From Actinomycetes bacterium (lineage in GTDB: Bacteria > Actinomycetota > Acidimicrobiia > Acidimicrobiales > RAAP-2), in the NCBI GenBank assembly GCA_021845725.1, contig JAJZVL010000006.1, positions 1 through 64,000 of the forward strand: a stretch of 64,000 nucleotides of DNA. The letters are read 5' to 3'. The notes beneath the pieces were generated by a model. That model saw only the letters and a program-made list of their open reading frames with translations, was not told the DNA's origin and did no database searches. Made by a program: the position numbers and the translations under genes. Below, piece after piece: positions 251 through 11,689 of the stretch (position 1 is the first letter of the stretch; every line of letters begins with the position of its first letter).

Positions 251-958
251 CGGGACCCTTTCCCAAGCGAGGGATCGAGTATCGCAGGTCAGCAGCCAGG
301 CCATGCCTCCGGCGCAGGTCGACGAGTGGCCCGGTCCGACCAGTCTGGCCTTGTCCCGACGAGTGGCCCGGTCCGACCAGTCGGGCATTGTCAAGGATGG
401 CGATGAACGTCGGCCACCGCTGGTGAGCCTCCTGCAGCGCTGCCAGGTGCTGGGTGAGCCCGTCTTGGAGGTGCGCGACCGCTGGACTCGGCGATCCCAT
501 CCGGTGATCCAAGGCCTGCCGTGGGGGACGAGTCGACCGTCTGGCCGACCGCCCCCACGATCGATCTGGCCCGCATCGCCGAAGGCAGACCTCACGGCGA
601 ACCGTCACGCGCTGGGCGGTCAGGCTGATGGTGGCCCTTGCGCCACACGAGGGGTGGTTCGCGCTGTAAGAGGCCGGTGCCACCCAGCCGAGCACCTGGG
701 CGACGGCTCCAGGACTCTGTCGCCCCCTGTTCGCGCGCGAACCAAGCCGCGAACCCTCTCTGGGATGGGCAGACGATGTCAAATGCGTCGCGCGCCGAGG
801 CCGCGCTAGGTTCGCGAAGTGGGCCTGCTCGAAGCGGGGCGCTTCGACTCTGCTGTCGTGGCGGTTGAGCGCTCGCCCGCTGCTCTTCGCTTGGATCATC
901 TCGCCTCGCCGGTGTGGGACCGGCTGACAGCCGACGGCGCGGTCGGGAGAAGGGCAGC
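251..958. other. Region without a convincing gene
   Basis: No reading frame here has a recognisable domain, a good ribosome-binding site and a plausible composition together. A minus-strand stretch around 400-520 reads like coding sequence for a few dozen residues (HLQDGLTQHLAALQEAHQRW) but has no proper start and soon loses sense. With the truncated epimerase on its left, this looks like decayed or rearranged DNA. A 37-bp direct repeat lies at 320-393. The last 50 bases carry the upstream region of the peptidase gene. Confidence 0.5.
320..393. repeat. 37-bp direct tandem repeat, two copies
   Basis: The copies are 320-356 and 357-393. The first 26 bases (starting CGACGAGTGGCCCGGTCC) are identical; the last 11 differ at four positions. 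The repeat lies in the gene-free stretch beside the insertion element, so it may be a duplicated element end or simple slippage. Confidence 0.8.
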
Positions 959-2419
959 ATGAAGGCGCGTGGCGCCGCCCTGTTGAGCCTGTTCGTGGCT
1001 GTCGCACTCGCAGCCGGATTGACCCTCGGGACGGCCCTCGGGCCGCCGGAGCACGCAGGCGGGCTTCCTCCCCGCCAGCTCCAGGATCGTCGTTCGCCGG
1101 GGACGAGCCTCCTGACCGAGGCACAATGCCTCGCTGCACCTTCGATCCGCATGCCCTGTTACGACCCTGCCCAGATCGAGACCGCGTACGACGAGCTGCC
1201 GCTGCTCGCCAAGGGCATCGATGGACGCGGTCAGACGATCGCGATCGTGGACTCGTTCGGCTCCCCGACCATCCGAACCGACCTCGCCGTGTTCGACGCC
1301 CGGTTCCACCTGCCTGCCCCTCCGAGCCTGGACGTCATCCAGCCGGCAGGTCCTGTCCCGCGTTACAACTCCGCCACAACAACAATGGTCGGCTGGGCCG
1401 GGGAGACCACCCTCGATGTGGAGTGGGCCCACGCGGTGGCACCAGGGGCGAGCCTTCTTCTCGTCGAGACCCCGGTCTCGGAGACCGAGGGAGCAACCGG
1501 GTTCCCTCAGATCGTGGCTGCGGAGAACTACGTCATCGACCATCACCTGGGCGACGTCATCAGCCAGAGCTTCGGAGCCAACGAGAAGACCTTCACTTCT
1601 GTGGGCACGATCCAGTCACTGCGCAGCGCGTTCGTCGCGGCCGCAGCCGCAGGCGTGACCGTGGTCGCGTCGACGGGTGACACAGGCGTCAGTGATTATT
1701 CGACAGCGACAGGCAAGAGCTTCTCGACGGAGCCGACCGTCACATGGCCGGCGAGCGACCCGCTCGTCACCGCAGTTGGGGGCACTCAGCTCAGCTTGAA
1801 TGCGGCGGGGCAGCGAACCGCTCCCGATCAGGTCTGGAACGACTCGTATGATCCCGCCGCGAACCGCTTCGTGTTCGGCACAGCGAAGCCCCATCCTGAC
1901 GCGAGTGGCGGCGGGCTCTCGTCGGTCTTCTCGCGTCCGTCGTACCAAGCGGGCGTCGCGCAGGTCGTTGGCGATCATCGCGGGATCCCAGACATCTCGA
2001 TGAGTGCCGCGTGCTCGGGTCTTGTGGACACCTACCAGAGCTTCCCGGGGCCGACACCGCCGGGTTGGTACTACGTGTGTGGCACGAGCGAGTCGGCACC
2101 GCTGTTCGCAGGGATCGTCGCGCTCGCGGACCAAGAAGCCCATCATGGTCTCGGCCTGATCAACCCGGCGCTGTACGCGATGAAGCGAATGCACGATCCT
2201 GGGATCGTGCCGGTGACGAGGGGGGACACCACGGTGTCGTTCGAGCAGGACGGCACCGAGCACACGGTGAGCGGTTACCGCGCATCGGCGGGTTACAACC
2301 TCGCGTCCGGGCTGGGCACCGTGGATGCTGCACTGTTCGTCCCCGAACTGGTGCGAGCCGTCGCACGGGTCGGCACGTCGGCCAGCTACGGCTTTCTGCC
2401 TTCGAGCGGCGTGGGCTGA
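959..2419 (+). CDS. Secreted sedolisin-type (S53) peptidase
   Basis: Encodes a 486-residue serine-carboxyl peptidase with a subtilisin fold, a family that usually acts in acid outside the cell. The ATG at 959 follows AGAAGGG and opens a signal peptide: MKARG, then a hydrophobic run to about residue 27. Catalytic Glu149 and Asp153 lie in GETTLD, the oxyanion Asp241 in TGDTG, and the nucleophile Ser377 in GTSESAP. A YNLASGLGTVD segment near the C-terminus fits the calcium-site region. The large activation prodomain found in most family members is absent: only about 45 residues separate the signal peptide from the catalytic core. A start at 914 is possible but would bury the signal peptide. The stop lies inside the first unit of a 14-bp tandem repeat. 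Confidence 0.9.
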   Translation: MKARGAALLSLFVAVALAAGLTLGTALGPPEHAGGLPPRQLQDRRSPGTSLLTEAQCLAAPSIRMPCYDPAQIETAYDELPLLAKGIDGRGQTIAIVDSFGSPTIRTDLAVFDARFHLPAPPSLDVIQPAGPVPRYNSATTTMVGWAGETTLDVEWAHAVAPGASLLLVETPVSETEGATGFPQIVAAENYVIDHHLGDVISQSFGANEKTFTSVGTIQSLRSAFVAAAAAGVTVVASTGDTGVSDYSTATGKSFSTEPTVTWPASDPLVTAVGGTQLSLNAAGQRTAPDQVWNDSYDPAANRFVFGTAKPHPDASGGGLSSVFSRPSYQAGVAQVVGDHRGIPDISMSAACSGLVDTYQSFPGPTPPGWYYVCGTSESAPLFAGIVALADQEAHHGLGLINPALYAMKRMHDPGIVPVTRGDTTVSFEQDGTEHTVSGYRASAGYNLASGLGTVDAALFVPELVRAVARVGTSASYGFLPSSGVG

Positions 2420-2487
2420 GCGGCGTGGGCTGAGCGGCGTGGGCTGAGCGGCGTGGGCTGAGCGGCGTGGGCTGAGCGGCGTGGGCT
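2404..2487. repeat. Six perfect copies of a 14-bp tandem repeat
   Basis: The unit GAGCGGCGTGGGCT occurs six times without a mismatch. Each unit-to-unit junction creates TGA. The peptidase stop codon is the first of these, at 2417-2419. Because 14 is not a multiple of three, successive TGAs fall in all three forward frames. A second six-copy 14-bp array with the same property lies at 13624-13707. Confidence 0.95.
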
Positions 2488-2527
2488 GAGCACCCTGAGG
2501 ACGACGACCAGGGGCGAAGAACGGAGC

Positions 2528-4183
2528 TCAGCCCTCCGCCGATCCGGTCTCCCTGCCGCAGCCCTTCCTGCGGACGGCTTCCCCCGGGCGGTCTCCTCGG
2601 AGGCCGAGCTGCTCGCCGATCCGATCGGGATCGGTCTCCCAGTGCCAATTCCCCGATGGGATCGCCTCATCGAGAGGGGTGTCGGGACCCAGCAGTTCGC
2701 GCACGGCTGTCTCGAGCTCTCGAGGCGTCGACGCCCCGATCGCCTGCACCGTGCCGTCGATATCGACGAAGACGTTGGTGGGCACTCCACGGATCCCCAG
2801 CTTCTCGACGAGCGTGCCTCGTTCGTCGACAAGAACGGTGCCCTTTACGCCCCAGAGCTCACAGAATGTCCGGGCCTCAGTGAACGCGTTCGTCCCCTCC
2901 CACACGTCGACGAGGATGATCTCCAGGCCAGACCGGCCTGCACGGCGACGCAGGTCTTCGATGACCGGCGCTTCCGCATTGCACGGGCCTCACCAGCTGG
3001 CGAACACGTTGACGACGTACTTGCGCCCAGCCCACTCGCCCAGGTCGCGCAGCTCCCTCGTCCAGAGGTCCGGCAGAAAGAGGCGTGGCATCTTGCTGCC
3101 CACCATCGGGTGCTCCCCGCGTGCGACAGGCACGACCGGGGGTCCGGCGAGCAAATCGTCAGCAACCGTGAGGGTCCCGGACCCAGCGTTCGCGACGAGG
3201 ATGCGGCCGGGGTGCAACGGATCCTCCCAGACACCTCCGGGGGCGGCGCCGACAGGGATCCTTGACCACTCGGTTCCGTCGAGCCCCATCACGCTCACGG
3301 TGCCGTCGCCGCGATTGCCGACGTAGAGGCGGTCATCGCGCGATCCGACGGTGAGCCCGACAGGAGCGTTCGGCACCGCCATCTCGGCGATCTTCTCGAT
3401 GCTGCGGCCGTCGACGCGGGTGATCGTGCTAGTGAGCGAGTCGGCGATGAAGACGTCGCCGCTCGTCTGGTGCAGACCAATGGCGCACGGTCCGGCCGGC
3501 AGGCCCAGGCGTGCAGTGACCTCGAGCGTCTGCGCGTCGACGACGCTCAAGGAAGAGGCGACGAAGTTCACGCAGTAGACCCGCCCTGCGCCAGGATCCA
3601 CCGCGACGGCACCTGCACCCAGCTCCGCCTCGACGACGCCGATCCGCTCGAGACGGTCGACGTCGACGACGCTCATCGTCGAGCCCGCGGCGTCCCCGCA
3701 GTAGATGCGTCGCCCCTCGGTGTCGATGCACAGCCCCGCGGGGTAGGAGCCCACCGTGATGGTGGTCACGACCTGCCCCGCCGCCGCGTCGATCACCGAG
3801 ATCTGGTCGGAGCGCGCGTCAGCGCTGAAAACTCTGCCCGTCTGGTCGTCGACCACGATGTCGATGGGCTCGCCTCCGACGGGGATCATCGCGATGACGC
3901 GTAGCTCCTCGGGGTCGACGACGGCGACGGCGTTGGACCGCGAGCACGCGACGTAGATGCGACCGGTCGCCCGGTGGACGGCGACCCCTTCGGGGTCGAG
4001 GCCGACCTCCACCTCACCCACGAGCCGGTACGCTCGTCCTTCGCCGGCGAGGTCGATCTGGCAGCTGGGCCCGCCGTCGAGGACCGCCGGCAGCACCGGC
4101 GAGTCCGTGTCGATGCTGCCACCTTGCGCGTGGGGCTCCACGCGCGGCTCGTCCTTGCGCGGCTCGTTCAGCGGGGAGGGCAT
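2528..4183 (-). CDS. Putative selenoprotein: beta-propeller fused to thioredoxin-like domain with in-frame UGA
   Basis: Read through one TGA, this encodes 551 residues. The ATG at 4183 follows AAGGAG seven bases upstream. Residues about 50-350 are YncE/NHL-like propeller blades with repeated VAVDP..GRVY and SVVD motifs. Residues about 360-515 are a TlpA/thioredoxin-like fold: KYVVNVFASW, then TGA at codon 398, then GPCNAEAPVIEDL, and a cis-proline loop GVPTNVFVD. The TGA takes the place of the first cysteine of WCGPC, giving a Sec398-x-x-Cys401 pair. The frame stays open and domain-like for 154 codons after the TGA. No signal peptide is visible, so a cytoplasmic location is inferred. The divergent neighbour is the selenocysteine tRNA. 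The alternative is a nonsense mutation making a propeller-only product with a dead tail, or a sequencing error. A separate short start at 2905 is unlikely because it would lack the redox motif. Confidence 0.8.
2924..2989 (-). promoter_or_regulatory. Candidate SECIS hairpins downstream of the UGA
   Basis: Two hairpins can be drawn in the mRNA after the UGA. The near one pairs GGUC with GACC around the loop AUCGAA, starting 24 bases after the UGA, which is the usual distance for bacterial SECIS elements. Its stem is short and the loop lacks G in its first two positions. The far one (2924-2940) pairs CAGGCC with GGCCUG around a GGUCU loop, the apical sequence of the E. coli fdhF element as I recall it. 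Its loop begins about 55 bases from the UGA, beyond the usual range. Neither is conclusive. Confidence 0.35.
2990..2992 (-). other. In-frame UGA, probable selenocysteine codon
   Basis: The codon order is TTC GCC AGC TGG TGA GGC CCG TGC, giving F-A-S-W-(UGA)-G-P-C. The expected residue at this point in TlpA-like thioredoxins is cysteine (TGC/TGT). UxxC motifs in thioredoxin folds are an established selenoprotein signature. Confidence 0.75.
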
Positions 4184-4318
4184 CCGGTTCTCCTTCGTGA
4201 GGGGCACTCGTCATGCCCAGGCGGTTGCAGTGTGGAACCGTCATCGGCTGGGGCGCGGCCGCTCATCGAGCCAAACCATGGCAATCCCGGCCCCCGTCGC
4301 GCAAGGCGGCCGGTGCAG

Positions 4319-4373
4319 GCTCGGCGACCTGCTCGGCGACCTGCTCGGCGACGTGCTCGGCGACGTGCTCGGG
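4319..4373. repeat. 12-bp tandem repeat upstream of selC
   Basis: Four copies of GCTCGGCGACST (two with CT, two with GT at the end) plus a partial fifth lie between the divergent selenoprotein gene and the selenocysteine tRNA. No gene covers them. They occupy the region where promoters for both genes should lie. Confidence 0.85.
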
Positions 4374-4420
4374 CCAAACAGGCGAGCGCAGAGGTATCCG
4401 GTGCCTCTACGCTCCGTTGC

Positions 4421-4513
4421 GGAGGTGTCCAGGCGCCTGGTGGGCCTCCCCGCCTTCAAAGCGGGTGGGACGGGTGATCCCCGTCCGGCGGGTTCGATTC
4501 CCGTCCACCTCCG
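4421..4513 (+). tRNA. selC: tRNA-Sec (anticodon TCA)
   Basis: The acceptor arms GGAGGTG and CACCTCC pair, and a further position (T4428/C4505) suggests the long acceptor arm of tRNA-Sec with one mismatch. The D-stem is long (AGGCGC with one mismatch) and closes a CTGGT loop. The anticodon stem CCCGC/GCGGG holds the loop CTTCAAA, giving TCA at 4456-4458. A long variable arm pairs GGACGGG with CCCGTCC. The T-arm is CGGG-TTCGATT-CCCG. The discriminator is G4513 and CCA is not encoded. UCA anticodon, long extra arm and enlarged D-stem together distinguish it from tRNA-Ser and from suppressors. It lies 238 bases from the candidate selenoprotein start. No selA, selB or selD is in the window. Confidence 0.92.
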
Positions 4514-4739
4514 CGAGAGCGATGTGACCGACGGCGGGCGTCCGCGAGGGAGCTGCCGCCATGACGCAGCCTGACGAAGAGCCGCTGCTCCCGGCCGCGA
4601 GGTTGGTTGCGTGCGGCCTTGGGCTCGGGCGCCAGCTCCTTGCGGCACGCACGTATAGTTGTGACCCCACGCGTGCTCGGGCCGGCGGCACGTTGCCAGC
4701 TACGCGCATGGATCAGCGCGAAGGGATACGAGGAGCCAC

Positions 4740-4898
4740 ATGTCCTTCCAGTCAGGGTCGGAATCACCCACCATCTGGCGGTGCGCGGGATGTGGGGCGC
4801 TCGTGCACCCCGCGGACGAGGACGCTCCGGCTGCCTGGTGCCTGCGTTGCCGCCGGATGGTCCAAGCCGTTCGCGATGGCGAGCAGCGCCCCGCCTGA
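4740..4898 (+). CDS. Small zinc-ribbon protein, 52 residues
   Basis: The ATG at 4740 follows GAGGAG, and the frame ends with TGA at 4896-4898. The product starts MSFQSGSESPTIWRCAGCGA and carries two CxxC knuckles, CAGC and CLRC, 19 residues apart, which should bind one zinc ion. I do not recognise a named family. It is the first gene downstream of selC on the same strand and precedes the AhpD-like gene. Its function is unknown; a nucleic-acid or protein adaptor role is usual for such ribbons. Confidence 0.65.
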   Translation: MSFQSGSESPTIWRCAGCGALVHPADEDAPAAWCLRCRRMVQAVRDGEQRPA

Positions 4899-5080: not shown

Positions 5081-5446
5081 GTGGGCCACTACCACGACGT
5101 ACAGGATGAGCTGCGGGACCAGTACGCGAGGCTTCGGGAGGTCGTGCCCGACGTCGTGTCCGGCTACGCCACCCTGCACCGCAGCGCGATGGCCGAGGGA
5201 GCGGTGTCGGCGAAGACCAAGGAGCTGATCGCGCTCGCCATCGCGGTCACCCGGGAGTGCGACGGGTGCATTGCCTCCCATGCCCGCGGTGCGGCCCGGA
5301 GAGGTGCGACGGTGCAGGAAGTCGCCGAGATCATCGGCGTCTGCATCCTGATGAACGGAGGTCCGGGCACCGTGTTTGGACCGAGAGCGTTCGCTGCCTT
5401 CGAGGAGTACGCCGCGGCACAGGCGCCGAGGCCGTCGCAGGCCTGA
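5081..5446 (+). CDS. AhpD-like / carboxymuconolactone decarboxylase family protein
   Basis: Encodes 121 residues of the AhpD-like helical fold. The core motif ECDGCIASHARGA places the CxxC pair at Cys60 and Cys63 and the proton-relay His67, the arrangement of AhpD-type thiol peroxidases rather than of true lactone decarboxylases. The GTG start at 5081 follows GAAGGGAG. The stop is inside a small direct repeat (GCCTGAGCC twice). The neighbourhood (thioredoxin-like selenoprotein, selC, zinc ribbon) suggests a thiol-redox or peroxide-defence role, but this is inference. The substrate is unknown. Confidence 0.85.
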   Translation: MGHYHDVQDELRDQYARLREVVPDVVSGYATLHRSAMAEGAVSAKTKELIALAIAVTRECDGCIASHARGAARRGATVQEVAEIIGVCILMNGGPGTVFGPRAFAAFEEYAAAQAPRPSQA

Positions 5447-5480
5447 GCCGCCTGAGCCGTTGTTCGCCAGCCCGGCTCGA

Positions 5481-5486
5481 TAAGGT
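5481..5486 (+). promoter_or_regulatory. -10 box of a probable leaderless transcript
   Basis: TAAGGT is followed by six bases and the GTG start at 5493. This spacing puts the transcription start at or next to the start codon. No ribosome-binding site precedes the GTG. Confidence 0.5.
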
Positions 5487-5492
5487 CCGGGC

Positions 5493-6407
5493 GTGCGCCT
5501 TGCGACCTTCCTCGTTCCCGACGAGACGCCAGCCGGTCCCTCGACACGCCAGCACACGGGGGTGGTCGACGGTGGCGATCTCGTGGACCTGACCGATCCC
5601 GTGATCGGTCTGCCCGGCGACATGACCGCACTCCTCGGCCTGGGCGACGAGGCGTGGGAGCGGGCCATGTCGGCTCCAGCGACGTCGGCGCGACGGTGGA
5701 GGCTTGAGCAGGTCCAGCTGCTCGCCCCGGTCACGTCGCCCCCGAAGATCCTCGCGATCGGCTCGAACTATCGCAAGCACGTCGAGGAGATGGGACGTGA
5801 GCTCCCCGAGTACCAGTACTGGTTCAACAAGCAGCGGACGTCGGTGACCGGGCCTTCTGCCGACATCGTGCTCCCGGCGGTGTCCGAGCAGCTCGACTAC
5901 GAAGGGGAGCTCGGGGTGGTGATCCGGCGACGGGCGAAGTCGATCCCCGCGGCGCGCTGGCTGGAGGTGGTCGCGGGCTTCACCGTGGCGAACGACGTGA
6001 GCGTGCGCGACTGGCAGGCACATTCGCCGACCTTCACCATGGGCAAGTCCTTCGACACGCACTGCCCGATCGGTCCGTGGATCGTGACGCCCGACGAAGT
6101 GGGCGACGTCCGGAGCCTCTCACTGCGGACGTGGGTGAACGGCGAGCTCCGCCAGGACACGACGACGGGCGACATGATCTTCGGGCCCGACGAGATGATC
6201 GAGTACCTGACGACGGTCTTCCCGCTCGAACCGGGCGACGTGCTGTTGACGGGCACTCCGTCAGGCGTGGGCGCAGGATTGAAGCCGCCGCGCTGGCTGA
6301 AGGCGGGAGACGTAGTGCGGATCGAGATCGACCGCGTCGGCGTGCTCGAGAACCGGATCGTCAGCGGACCCCCGGTCGCGCCGGCCCCATCTCCGGTTGT
6401 GCGGTGA
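5493..6407 (+). CDS. Fumarylacetoacetate hydrolase (FAH) family protein
   Basis: Encodes 304 residues. A short N-terminal domain precedes the FAH beta-roll, which begins at PKILAIGSNYRKHVEEMG. Metal ligands are expected in YEGELGVVI and in the FTVANDVSVRDWQ segment; GKSFDTHCPIGPW and LLTGTPSGVG are hallmark FAH motifs. Members hydrolyse or isomerise 2-oxo acids in aromatic catabolism (acylpyruvase, HpcE-type isomerase/decarboxylase) or decarboxylate oxaloacetate. The sequence does not decide among these. No catabolic genes surround it, so a housekeeping acylpyruvase or oxaloacetate decarboxylase role is plausible. The GTG start is preceded by a -10-like box at leaderless spacing. Confidence 0.9.
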   Translation: MRLATFLVPDETPAGPSTRQHTGVVDGGDLVDLTDPVIGLPGDMTALLGLGDEAWERAMSAPATSARRWRLEQVQLLAPVTSPPKILAIGSNYRKHVEEMGRELPEYQYWFNKQRTSVTGPSADIVLPAVSEQLDYEGELGVVIRRRAKSIPAARWLEVVAGFTVANDVSVRDWQAHSPTFTMGKSFDTHCPIGPWIVTPDEVGDVRSLSLRTWVNGELRQDTTTGDMIFGPDEMIEYLTTVFPLEPGDVLLTGTPSGVGAGLKPPRWLKAGDVVRIEIDRVGVLENRIVSGPPVAPAPSPVVR

Positions 6408-10249: not shown

Positions 10250-11689
10250 TTGCCTGACGGCCTGCGCCGATCGTGGCGGGACGTGCAGGAGTCCTGGGAG
10301 CGGTCCCGGGGCATCGTCGTCCCCGCATCGGTCGCGGCGGCCGACGCGGCTGCCGGCGGCCTGCGGGTCGCCTTCCTCGTGTACCGAGGGAACCCGCAGT
10401 GCGGGGGCCAGGGCGTCTACACGCGCCACCTCACCCGTGAGCTGGTCGCCCTCGGGCACTCGGTGACGGTCTTCTCGGGACAGCCGTGGCCCCTGCTCGA
10501 CGAGGGGGTGGGGTTCGTCCCCGTTCCCGGCCTCGACCTCTATCGTGACCCCGACCCGTTCCGCCTGCCCCATCCCCGAGAGCTCCGCGACCTCGCGGCG
10601 GTGGCGGAGCTGGGTGTGATGCTCACGGGCGGCTTCGGGGAGCCGTTCGCCTTCTCATTGCGTGCCAGGCGCGCGCTACGAGCCAGACGTGGGGCGTTCG
10701 ACCTCGTCCACGACAACCAGTGCCTCGGGACCGGGATGCTCGGCATCCTCGCCGACGGGTGGCCGCTGCTCACCACCTTGCACCATCCCATCACGGTGGA
10801 CCGCCAGCTCGCGCTCAGTCACGCGCCCGGACCCTGGCAGCGTTACACGACGCGACGGTGGTTCGGCTTCTTGGGGATGCAGATGCGCGTTGCCAGGCAA
10901 CTGCCTCGAATCGTCACCGTCTCGCATTCCTCGCGTGCGGACATCGCCGCGCAGATGGGGGTCGAGGCGCACCGTATGACGGTTGTCCCCGTCGGCGTCG
11001 ACCACGACGTGTTCCGGCCGCGTGCCGACGTGGTGCCCGTTCCCGGCCGCATCATGGTCACCTCGTCGAGCGACGTGCCGATGAAGGGCCTCGTACCGCT
11101 GCTCGAGGCGGTCGCACGGCTGCGCGCCTCGCGCGACGTCGAGCTCGTCGTCGTCGGCCGGCCGCGCAAGGGGGGACGCGTAGACCGTGCGCTCGACCGG
11201 CTGGGGCTCCGCGCCGTCGTGCGCTGCATCAGCGGGATCACCGACGAGGAGCTCGCTCGCTGCTACGCAGAGGCCGAGATCGCCGTCGTTCCCTCCCTCT
11301 ACGAGGGGTTCTCGCTGCCGGCGGTCGAGGCCATGGCTTGCGGCGTGCCGGTCGTGACGACGACGGGGGGAGCGCTTCCCGAAGTCGTCGGTCGCGACGG
11401 CGAGACCGCGGTGCTCGTCCCGCCCGACGACCCCGGAGCCCTTGCCGCGGCGATCGGCGCGCTGCTCGACGACCCGGCCGCCCGTGCGCGGCTCGGCGCC
11501 GCGGGGAGGGAACGGGTGCTCCGGCGCTTCACGTGGCGGGTGACCGCCGAGGGCACGGCGGAGTGCTATCGCGCCCTGCTCGAGGAGCGAGGCCCCGGCG
11601 CGCGAGGGCGGGTCGGAGGAGGCGATCCGGCACGTGGAGCATCCCCGACGCTTGACGCGTCGCCGCTCACCGGGGCGGCCGCGTGCTGA
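10250..11689 (+). CDS. Glycosyltransferase family 4
   Basis: Encodes 479 residues with two Rossmann-like halves. The N-terminal half begins LRVAFLVYRGNPQCGGQGVY, the acceptor-side glycine loop. The C-terminal half carries the nucleotide-sugar EX7E signature in YEGFSLPAVEAMACG. It should be a retaining, cytoplasmic or membrane-peripheral sugar transferase. It overlaps the next methyltransferase gene by seven bases, and that gene in turn overlaps a toroid-fold gene, so the three form one operon. The start is uncertain: TTG at 10250 gives the longest frame, and a GTG at 10283 is possible. The last 30 residues are Gly/Arg-rich and likely disordered. Confidence 0.9.
   Translation: MPDGLRRSWRDVQESWERSRGIVVPASVAAADAAAGGLRVAFLVYRGNPQCGGQGVYTRHLTRELVALGHSVTVFSGQPWPLLDEGVGFVPVPGLDLYRDPDPFRLPHPRELRDLAAVAELGVMLTGGFGEPFAFSLRARRALRARRGAFDLVHDNQCLGTGMLGILADGWPLLTTLHHPITVDRQLALSHAPGPWQRYTTRRWFGFLGMQMRVARQLPRIVTVSHSSRADIAAQMGVEAHRMTVVPVGVDHDVFRPRADVVPVPGRIMVTSSSDVPMKGLVPLLEAVARLRASRDVELVVVGRPRKGGRVDRALDRLGLRAVVRCISGITDEELARCYAEAEIAVVPSLYEGFSLPAVEAMACGVPVVTTTGGALPEVVGRDGETAVLVPPDDPGALAAAIGALLDDPAARARLGAAGRERVLRRFTWRVTAEGTAECYRALLEERGPGARGRVGGGDPARGASPTLDASPLTGAAAC

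Follow-up and report, generated by a model that had tools for sequence, protein, structure and literature searches.

Why should a selenocysteine tRNA gene lie head to head with a gene that requires it? This question is raised by the stretch of DNA analysed here, which is 64,000 nucleotides long (hereafter the window; C106:1-64000 of the 150-contig draft genome of an uncultured actinobacterium, probably of the class Acidimicrobiia, its left edge being the contig end). The initial annotation had placed selC directly beside its client gene, divergently and starting 238 bases from the selenoprotein start codon. Coordinates, distance and orientation are correct, with 237 bases between the selenoprotein ATG and selC, and the client is a predicted selenoprotein gene with an in-frame UGA. 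From this arrangement a compact selenium locus had been proposed, possibly mobile or recently acquired, or else a co-regulated pair.

selC encodes a tRNA-Sec

selC (4421..4513, + strand) has the anticodon UCA, a long variable arm and a discriminator G at 4513 (G73), and its CCA end is not encoded. ARAGORN reports it as tRNA-SeC (anticodon tca, 4421-4514(+)), and the Rfam tRNA-Sec model RF01852 matches at 4421-4512(+) with 67.8 bits (E 1.1e-11) against a gathering cut-off of 47 bits, so that the covariance model, too, calls a tRNA-Sec, by a margin of 20 bits. It is the sole RF01852 match above the cut-off among the 150 contigs (3.05 Mb) of the draft genome. Bacterial tRNA-Sec usually adopts an 8/5 acceptor/T fold with 13 bp in total. 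The acceptor stem of selC comprises 7 pairs followed by U-C in the eighth position, and a sixth T-stem pair keeps the 13 bp, giving a 7/6 reading.

Several further observations concern tRNA genes more generally. In nearly all tRNA-Sec genes examined in the class, acceptor position 8 is U (or A) opposite C, and a 7/6 reading is possible there as well. Genome G087 possesses two tRNA-Sec matches above the cut-off (C12:193959 and C33:177505). Within the window ARAGORN additionally reports a tRNA-Thr (cgt) at 11321-11410. It falls within the reading frame of a glycosyltransferase, Rfam gave nothing above threshold for it, and the call is probably false.

The neighbour of selC is a predicted propeller-redoxin selenoprotein

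The client gene (2528..4183, - strand; ATG at 4183, RBS GAAGGAG) is predicted from its sequence to encode a selenoprotein of 551 aa that joins a beta-propeller to a redoxin domain. Its in-frame UGA (2990..2992, -) would be read as Sec at residue 398 within the motif FASW-U-GPCN, and the true stop lies at 2530-2528 (-). All 24 homologues that extend to this position have UGA there, in a range that runs from this genus to Streptomyces and Actinoallomurus, and the coding sequence 3' of the UGA is conserved in the homologues. Because none of these 24 has cysteine in place of the Sec, Sec may be truly required by the family. Genome contigs were also searched with a Cys-for-Sec query, and beyond the three best loci this gave thioredoxin-domain matches only. 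Ordinary gene calling would shorten propeller-redoxin genes, since the UGA would be taken as a stop.

The propeller is of the YVTN/YncE type (residues ~60-345; 3149..4006, -) and is matched by Pfam YNCE and NHL and by NCBIfam TIGR02276. It is followed by a Redoxin/ResA-like thioredoxin domain that carries the Sec (residues ~361-486; 2726..3103, -), to which the Redoxin, AhpC and Thioredoxin families all match (Pfam Redoxin E 1.4e-13). A profile built from 22 homologues matched the S-layer propeller 1l0q with an E of 1.4e-49 and ResA structures with E of 1e-15 to 1e-16, and the NCBIfam search with the selenoprotein gave no equivalog at or above its cut-off. The UxxC site most likely carries out thiol/selenol redox chemistry, as judged from the domain matches, and would do so in the cytoplasm since no signal peptide is apparent by eye. 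Three propeller cysteines (Cys80, Cys204 and Cys233) are invariant in 22/22 aligned homologues and may serve in metal binding or disulfide formation. Two convergent genes enclose a 14-nt tandem repeat (GAGCGGCGTGGGCT; window 2404-2501) directly past the selenoprotein stop codon.

A hairpin that starts 18 nt past the UGA (2948..2971, -; GCGC-C-GGUC-(AUCGAA)-GACC-U-GCGU) is a candidate SECIS only. Its pairing follows the register, with 94.3% of cells paired in register versus 34-52% when slid. The folding z is -0.71 and the covariation is no higher than in shuffles; because both folding energy and covariation fall within what codon conservation can give, the hairpin stays a candidate. The Rfam search for a SECIS gave no match.

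The selenocysteine machinery and a second client lie on other contigs

When selA, selB and selD were sought elsewhere in the genome all three were found, together and in the order selB-selD-selA on contig C117, apart from the selC contig C106. selA (378 bits) and selD (320 bits) both score over their curated cut-offs. selB, whose reading frame is full-length (650 aa) and shares an operon with those of selD and selA, scores 221.5 against a curated cut-off of 242.25; of the 16 genomes searched, 15 have a selB below that value. Contig C120 carries the gene for another selenoprotein, FdhA (NRT-U-H), and the neighbour of selC is therefore one of at least two clients. All compared genomes are drafts, and the contamination of this one is 4.83%. 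With these components, selC would supply the sole tRNA-Sec found, which SerRS would charge and SelA would convert using selenophosphate from SelD, and SelB would deliver the Sec-tRNA to two UGA codons, one in the gene next to selC and one in fdhA elsewhere.

We consider it exceedingly improbable that the tRNA is a non-working pseudo-tRNA, or that the UGA is a premature stop and no selenoprotein is made. The eighth acceptor pair, U-C against the usual 8/5 fold, and the weak SECIS evidence do lean that way, but they are opposed by the wide margin of selC over the Rfam cut-off, by the presence of selA, selB and selD in the genome, and by a UGA that is invariant in 24 homologues with conserved protein beyond it. 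The U-C acceptor feature is, moreover, common among the tRNA-Sec genes of the order.

The selC-client pair is conserved across the genus

A tRNA-Sec was found in 261 of 395 genomes of the class and in 15 of the 172 family genomes searched, 12 of these 15 belonging to this genus, where 12 of 13 genomes carry it (the thirteenth is 58% complete). The arrangement selenoprotein(-)|selC(+) is kept in 10 of the 12 selC-bearing genomes of the genus, mostly in the same gene neighbourhood. The pair is not accidental, since it is repeated in ten species whose selenoproteins are 73-93% identical. A putatively named sedolisin-like protease gene (914..2419, +) is a neighbour in all ten pair-type species. 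On the opposite side lie genes that we putatively name CMD/AhpD-like and FAH-like (5081..6407, +), the FAH-like gene being syntenic in 10/10 and CMD found in five, and the FAH-like gene is mostly accompanied by NifU-like and MgtE-like genes. Downstream of selC there is also a small zinc-ribbon-like reading frame (4740-4898, +; 52 aa, MSFQSGSESPTIWRCAGCGALVHP...CLRC...), and several species of the genus share its conserved start.

The remark in the initial annotation that selC and its clients often lie far apart is borne out in the order, where 33 of the 43 selC loci examined have no sel gene, selenoprotein homologue or FdhA relative within ~7 kb. The window neighbourhood was considered as the ancestral selC locus and rejected, as the genes beside selC in the window were not found near the 42 other selC loci of the order.

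These data also bear on the proposed mobility of the locus, which was not upheld. A mobile or recently acquired selenium cassette would be in keeping with the narrow distribution of tRNA-Sec in the family, confined as it is to those 15 genomes and mainly to this genus. It is nevertheless very unlikely given that ten species keep the pair in synteny, most with the sedolisin and CMD/FAH/NifU/MgtE flanks, that the selenoprotein phylogeny is coherent within the family, and that selC is widespread in the class. Nor was there an att-like repeat, no copy of the tRNA 3' end being present in the 64-kb window. Selenoprotein homologues were absent from the plasmid search and gave a single weak match in the phage search, to the propeller only, and the viral contig scan gave no match.

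The intergenic region fits two promoters

The region between the divergent genes (4184..4420) measures 196-269 bp in the ten species, and its conservation is limited to the two ends: ~70 bases by the selenoprotein ATG (4184..4253, -; containing the RBS and leader/promoter-like sequence) and ~40 bases by selC, which include a -10-like element, TACGCT (4408..4413, +), that is invariant in the ten species. The middle shows no conservation of sequence or of length, and a conserved central regulatory element sought across the ten species was not found. A promoter scan of the region gave no consensus sigma-70 promoter. Two end blocks with a non-conserved middle fit two promoters rather than one shared element.

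The suggestion of a co-regulated pair was accordingly not borne out. A shared regulatory region that couples tRNA-Sec supply to client expression would suit the head-to-head placement over this distance in ten species, and the conserved blocks do adjoin both genes. However, these blocks sit at opposite ends of a variable middle, and a second client, FdhA, requires the same tRNA from elsewhere in the genome, so that we see little chance of co-regulation as the explanation.

Relatives with an undivided locus suggest that the pair is a remnant

Three relatives, two of the same genus (G697 and G706) and one of another genus in the same family (G690), have the cluster-type arrangement selenoprotein(-)|selA-selB-selD-selC(+), the selenoproteins of G697 and G690 being cut by contig ends. 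Here the reading as a compact selenium locus finds its match; for this genome it is wrong, because selB-selD-selA reside on another contig. In the selenoprotein tree the pair type and G690, G697 and G706 are joined with support of 100/99, and the selenoprotein was therefore inherited within the family. The SelD proteins of the two types, on the other hand, are not orthologous (a single clade is rejected with AU p 4e-40) and differ in their motif, CGGCAAK versus GGGCSCK. The gene order likewise differs, being selB-selD-selA in the pair-type genomes where all three genes were recovered and selA-selB-selD in the cluster type. For SelA and SelB a single clade is compatible with the trees (AU p 0.375 and 0.473); replacement is thus supported for SelD only, and the trees provide no proof of a SelA or SelB replacement.

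On this evidence we regard the pair as the probable vestige of a selenium locus that once held everything in one place; its selABD genes would since have been lost, and the distant selBDA set would now stand in for them. The ancestral locus would have been selenoprotein(-)|selA-selB-selD-selC(+), as still seen in G690, G697 and G706. In the lineage leading to this genome the stretch selA-selB-selD would have dropped out of the space separating selC from the selenoprotein gene. A selB-selD-selA set at another site, its SelD not orthologous, would have taken over, leaving selC alone beside its client. Loss rather than insertion is the direction that we infer; the reverse, an insertion of selABD into a pair that already existed, would be the less parsimonious course, though a possible one. 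Loss of selABD is the simplest account, but the flanks differ between the two types as far as the contigs allow, so that simple excision in place is no more than one possible form of the event.

An alternative is that an unrelated rearrangement joined the two genes, which were then kept by chance or weak selection and are not an operon remnant. The flanks of the cluster-type loci (G690, G697 and G706) differ from the pair-type flanks within ~7 kb after selC, G233 carries its selenoprotein homologue far from selC, and across the order selC is mostly a solitary gene, all of which would be compatible with such an event. But in the nearest relatives, which include one from a different genus of the family, the divergent orientation recurs with selABD in between, and the selenoproteins of the cluster type and of this genome's type form one clade. 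We therefore judge a chance rearrangement unlikely and retain the remnant of an all-in-one locus as the preferred reading.

Other families display further arrangements. In G173 and G548, selA-selB-selD-selC is followed by the selenoprotein gene, all on one strand (L033 7647-13520 and L153). No FdhA with an in-frame TGA was found in either genome, and the selenoprotein may therefore be the only client there. G508, also of another family, has selenoprotein(-)|fdhAB-selA-selB-selD-selC, with a similar set in G631, and in G635 and G645 the sel genes, selC and fdhA occur together.

Comparison with known selenium loci

Relatives in both states illustrate how such a locus can break up: the client and the tRNA gene stay paired, and synthesis genes are found elsewhere, with a different SelD. 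Operons of selA-selB-selC with a neighbouring fdhA have been described in Pseudomonadales and other Proteobacteria (PMC1794560), and selABC operons are reported in PMC5330540 as well. As at the loci described here, the Sec machinery, selC and a client are clustered in the PMC1794560 operons, with the client gene next to the operon or at its flank. In contrast to them, the client here is a propeller-redoxin, selABD reside elsewhere, and the pair appears inherited rather than transferred. Streptomyces incarnatus possesses a selABCD cluster near Sec-FDH-O (PMC4498112). This is likewise an actinobacterial selenium cluster with a client in its vicinity, and its layout resembles that of G508, G631 and G635, but the client is FdhA and selC is not separated from selABD.

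With respect to the protein, the ResA/TlpA thiol-disulfide oxidoreductases (4nmu, 2f9s) also have a thioredoxin-type domain, and their active site coincides with the position of the Sec. The protein studied here differs in having Sec in place of the first Cys, an N-terminal propeller, and no apparent signal peptide or membrane anchor. A 2026 review (PMC13188914) lists a 'Redoxin family protein', a UxxC selenoprotein (PF08534), which is alike in its redoxin domain with UxxC; the main text of that review contains neither 'propeller' nor 'NHL', and the comparison with that family extends to this description alone. We suggest tentatively, and with somewhat less than even confidence, that the propeller-redoxins constitute a selenoprotein family of Actinomycetota that is undescribed, depends strictly on Sec and could sustain the Sec trait by itself. 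In PMC1794560 the trait is viewed as being maintained by FdhA or SelD selenoproteins, and a Sec trait sustained by a propeller-redoxin alone, as might apply in G173 and G548, would, if true, run counter to that view.

Clusters of selABC with a client are already known. The bare selC-client pair, which is kept in ten species and has a propeller-redoxin rather than FdhA as its client, thus represents a variation on a familiar arrangement.
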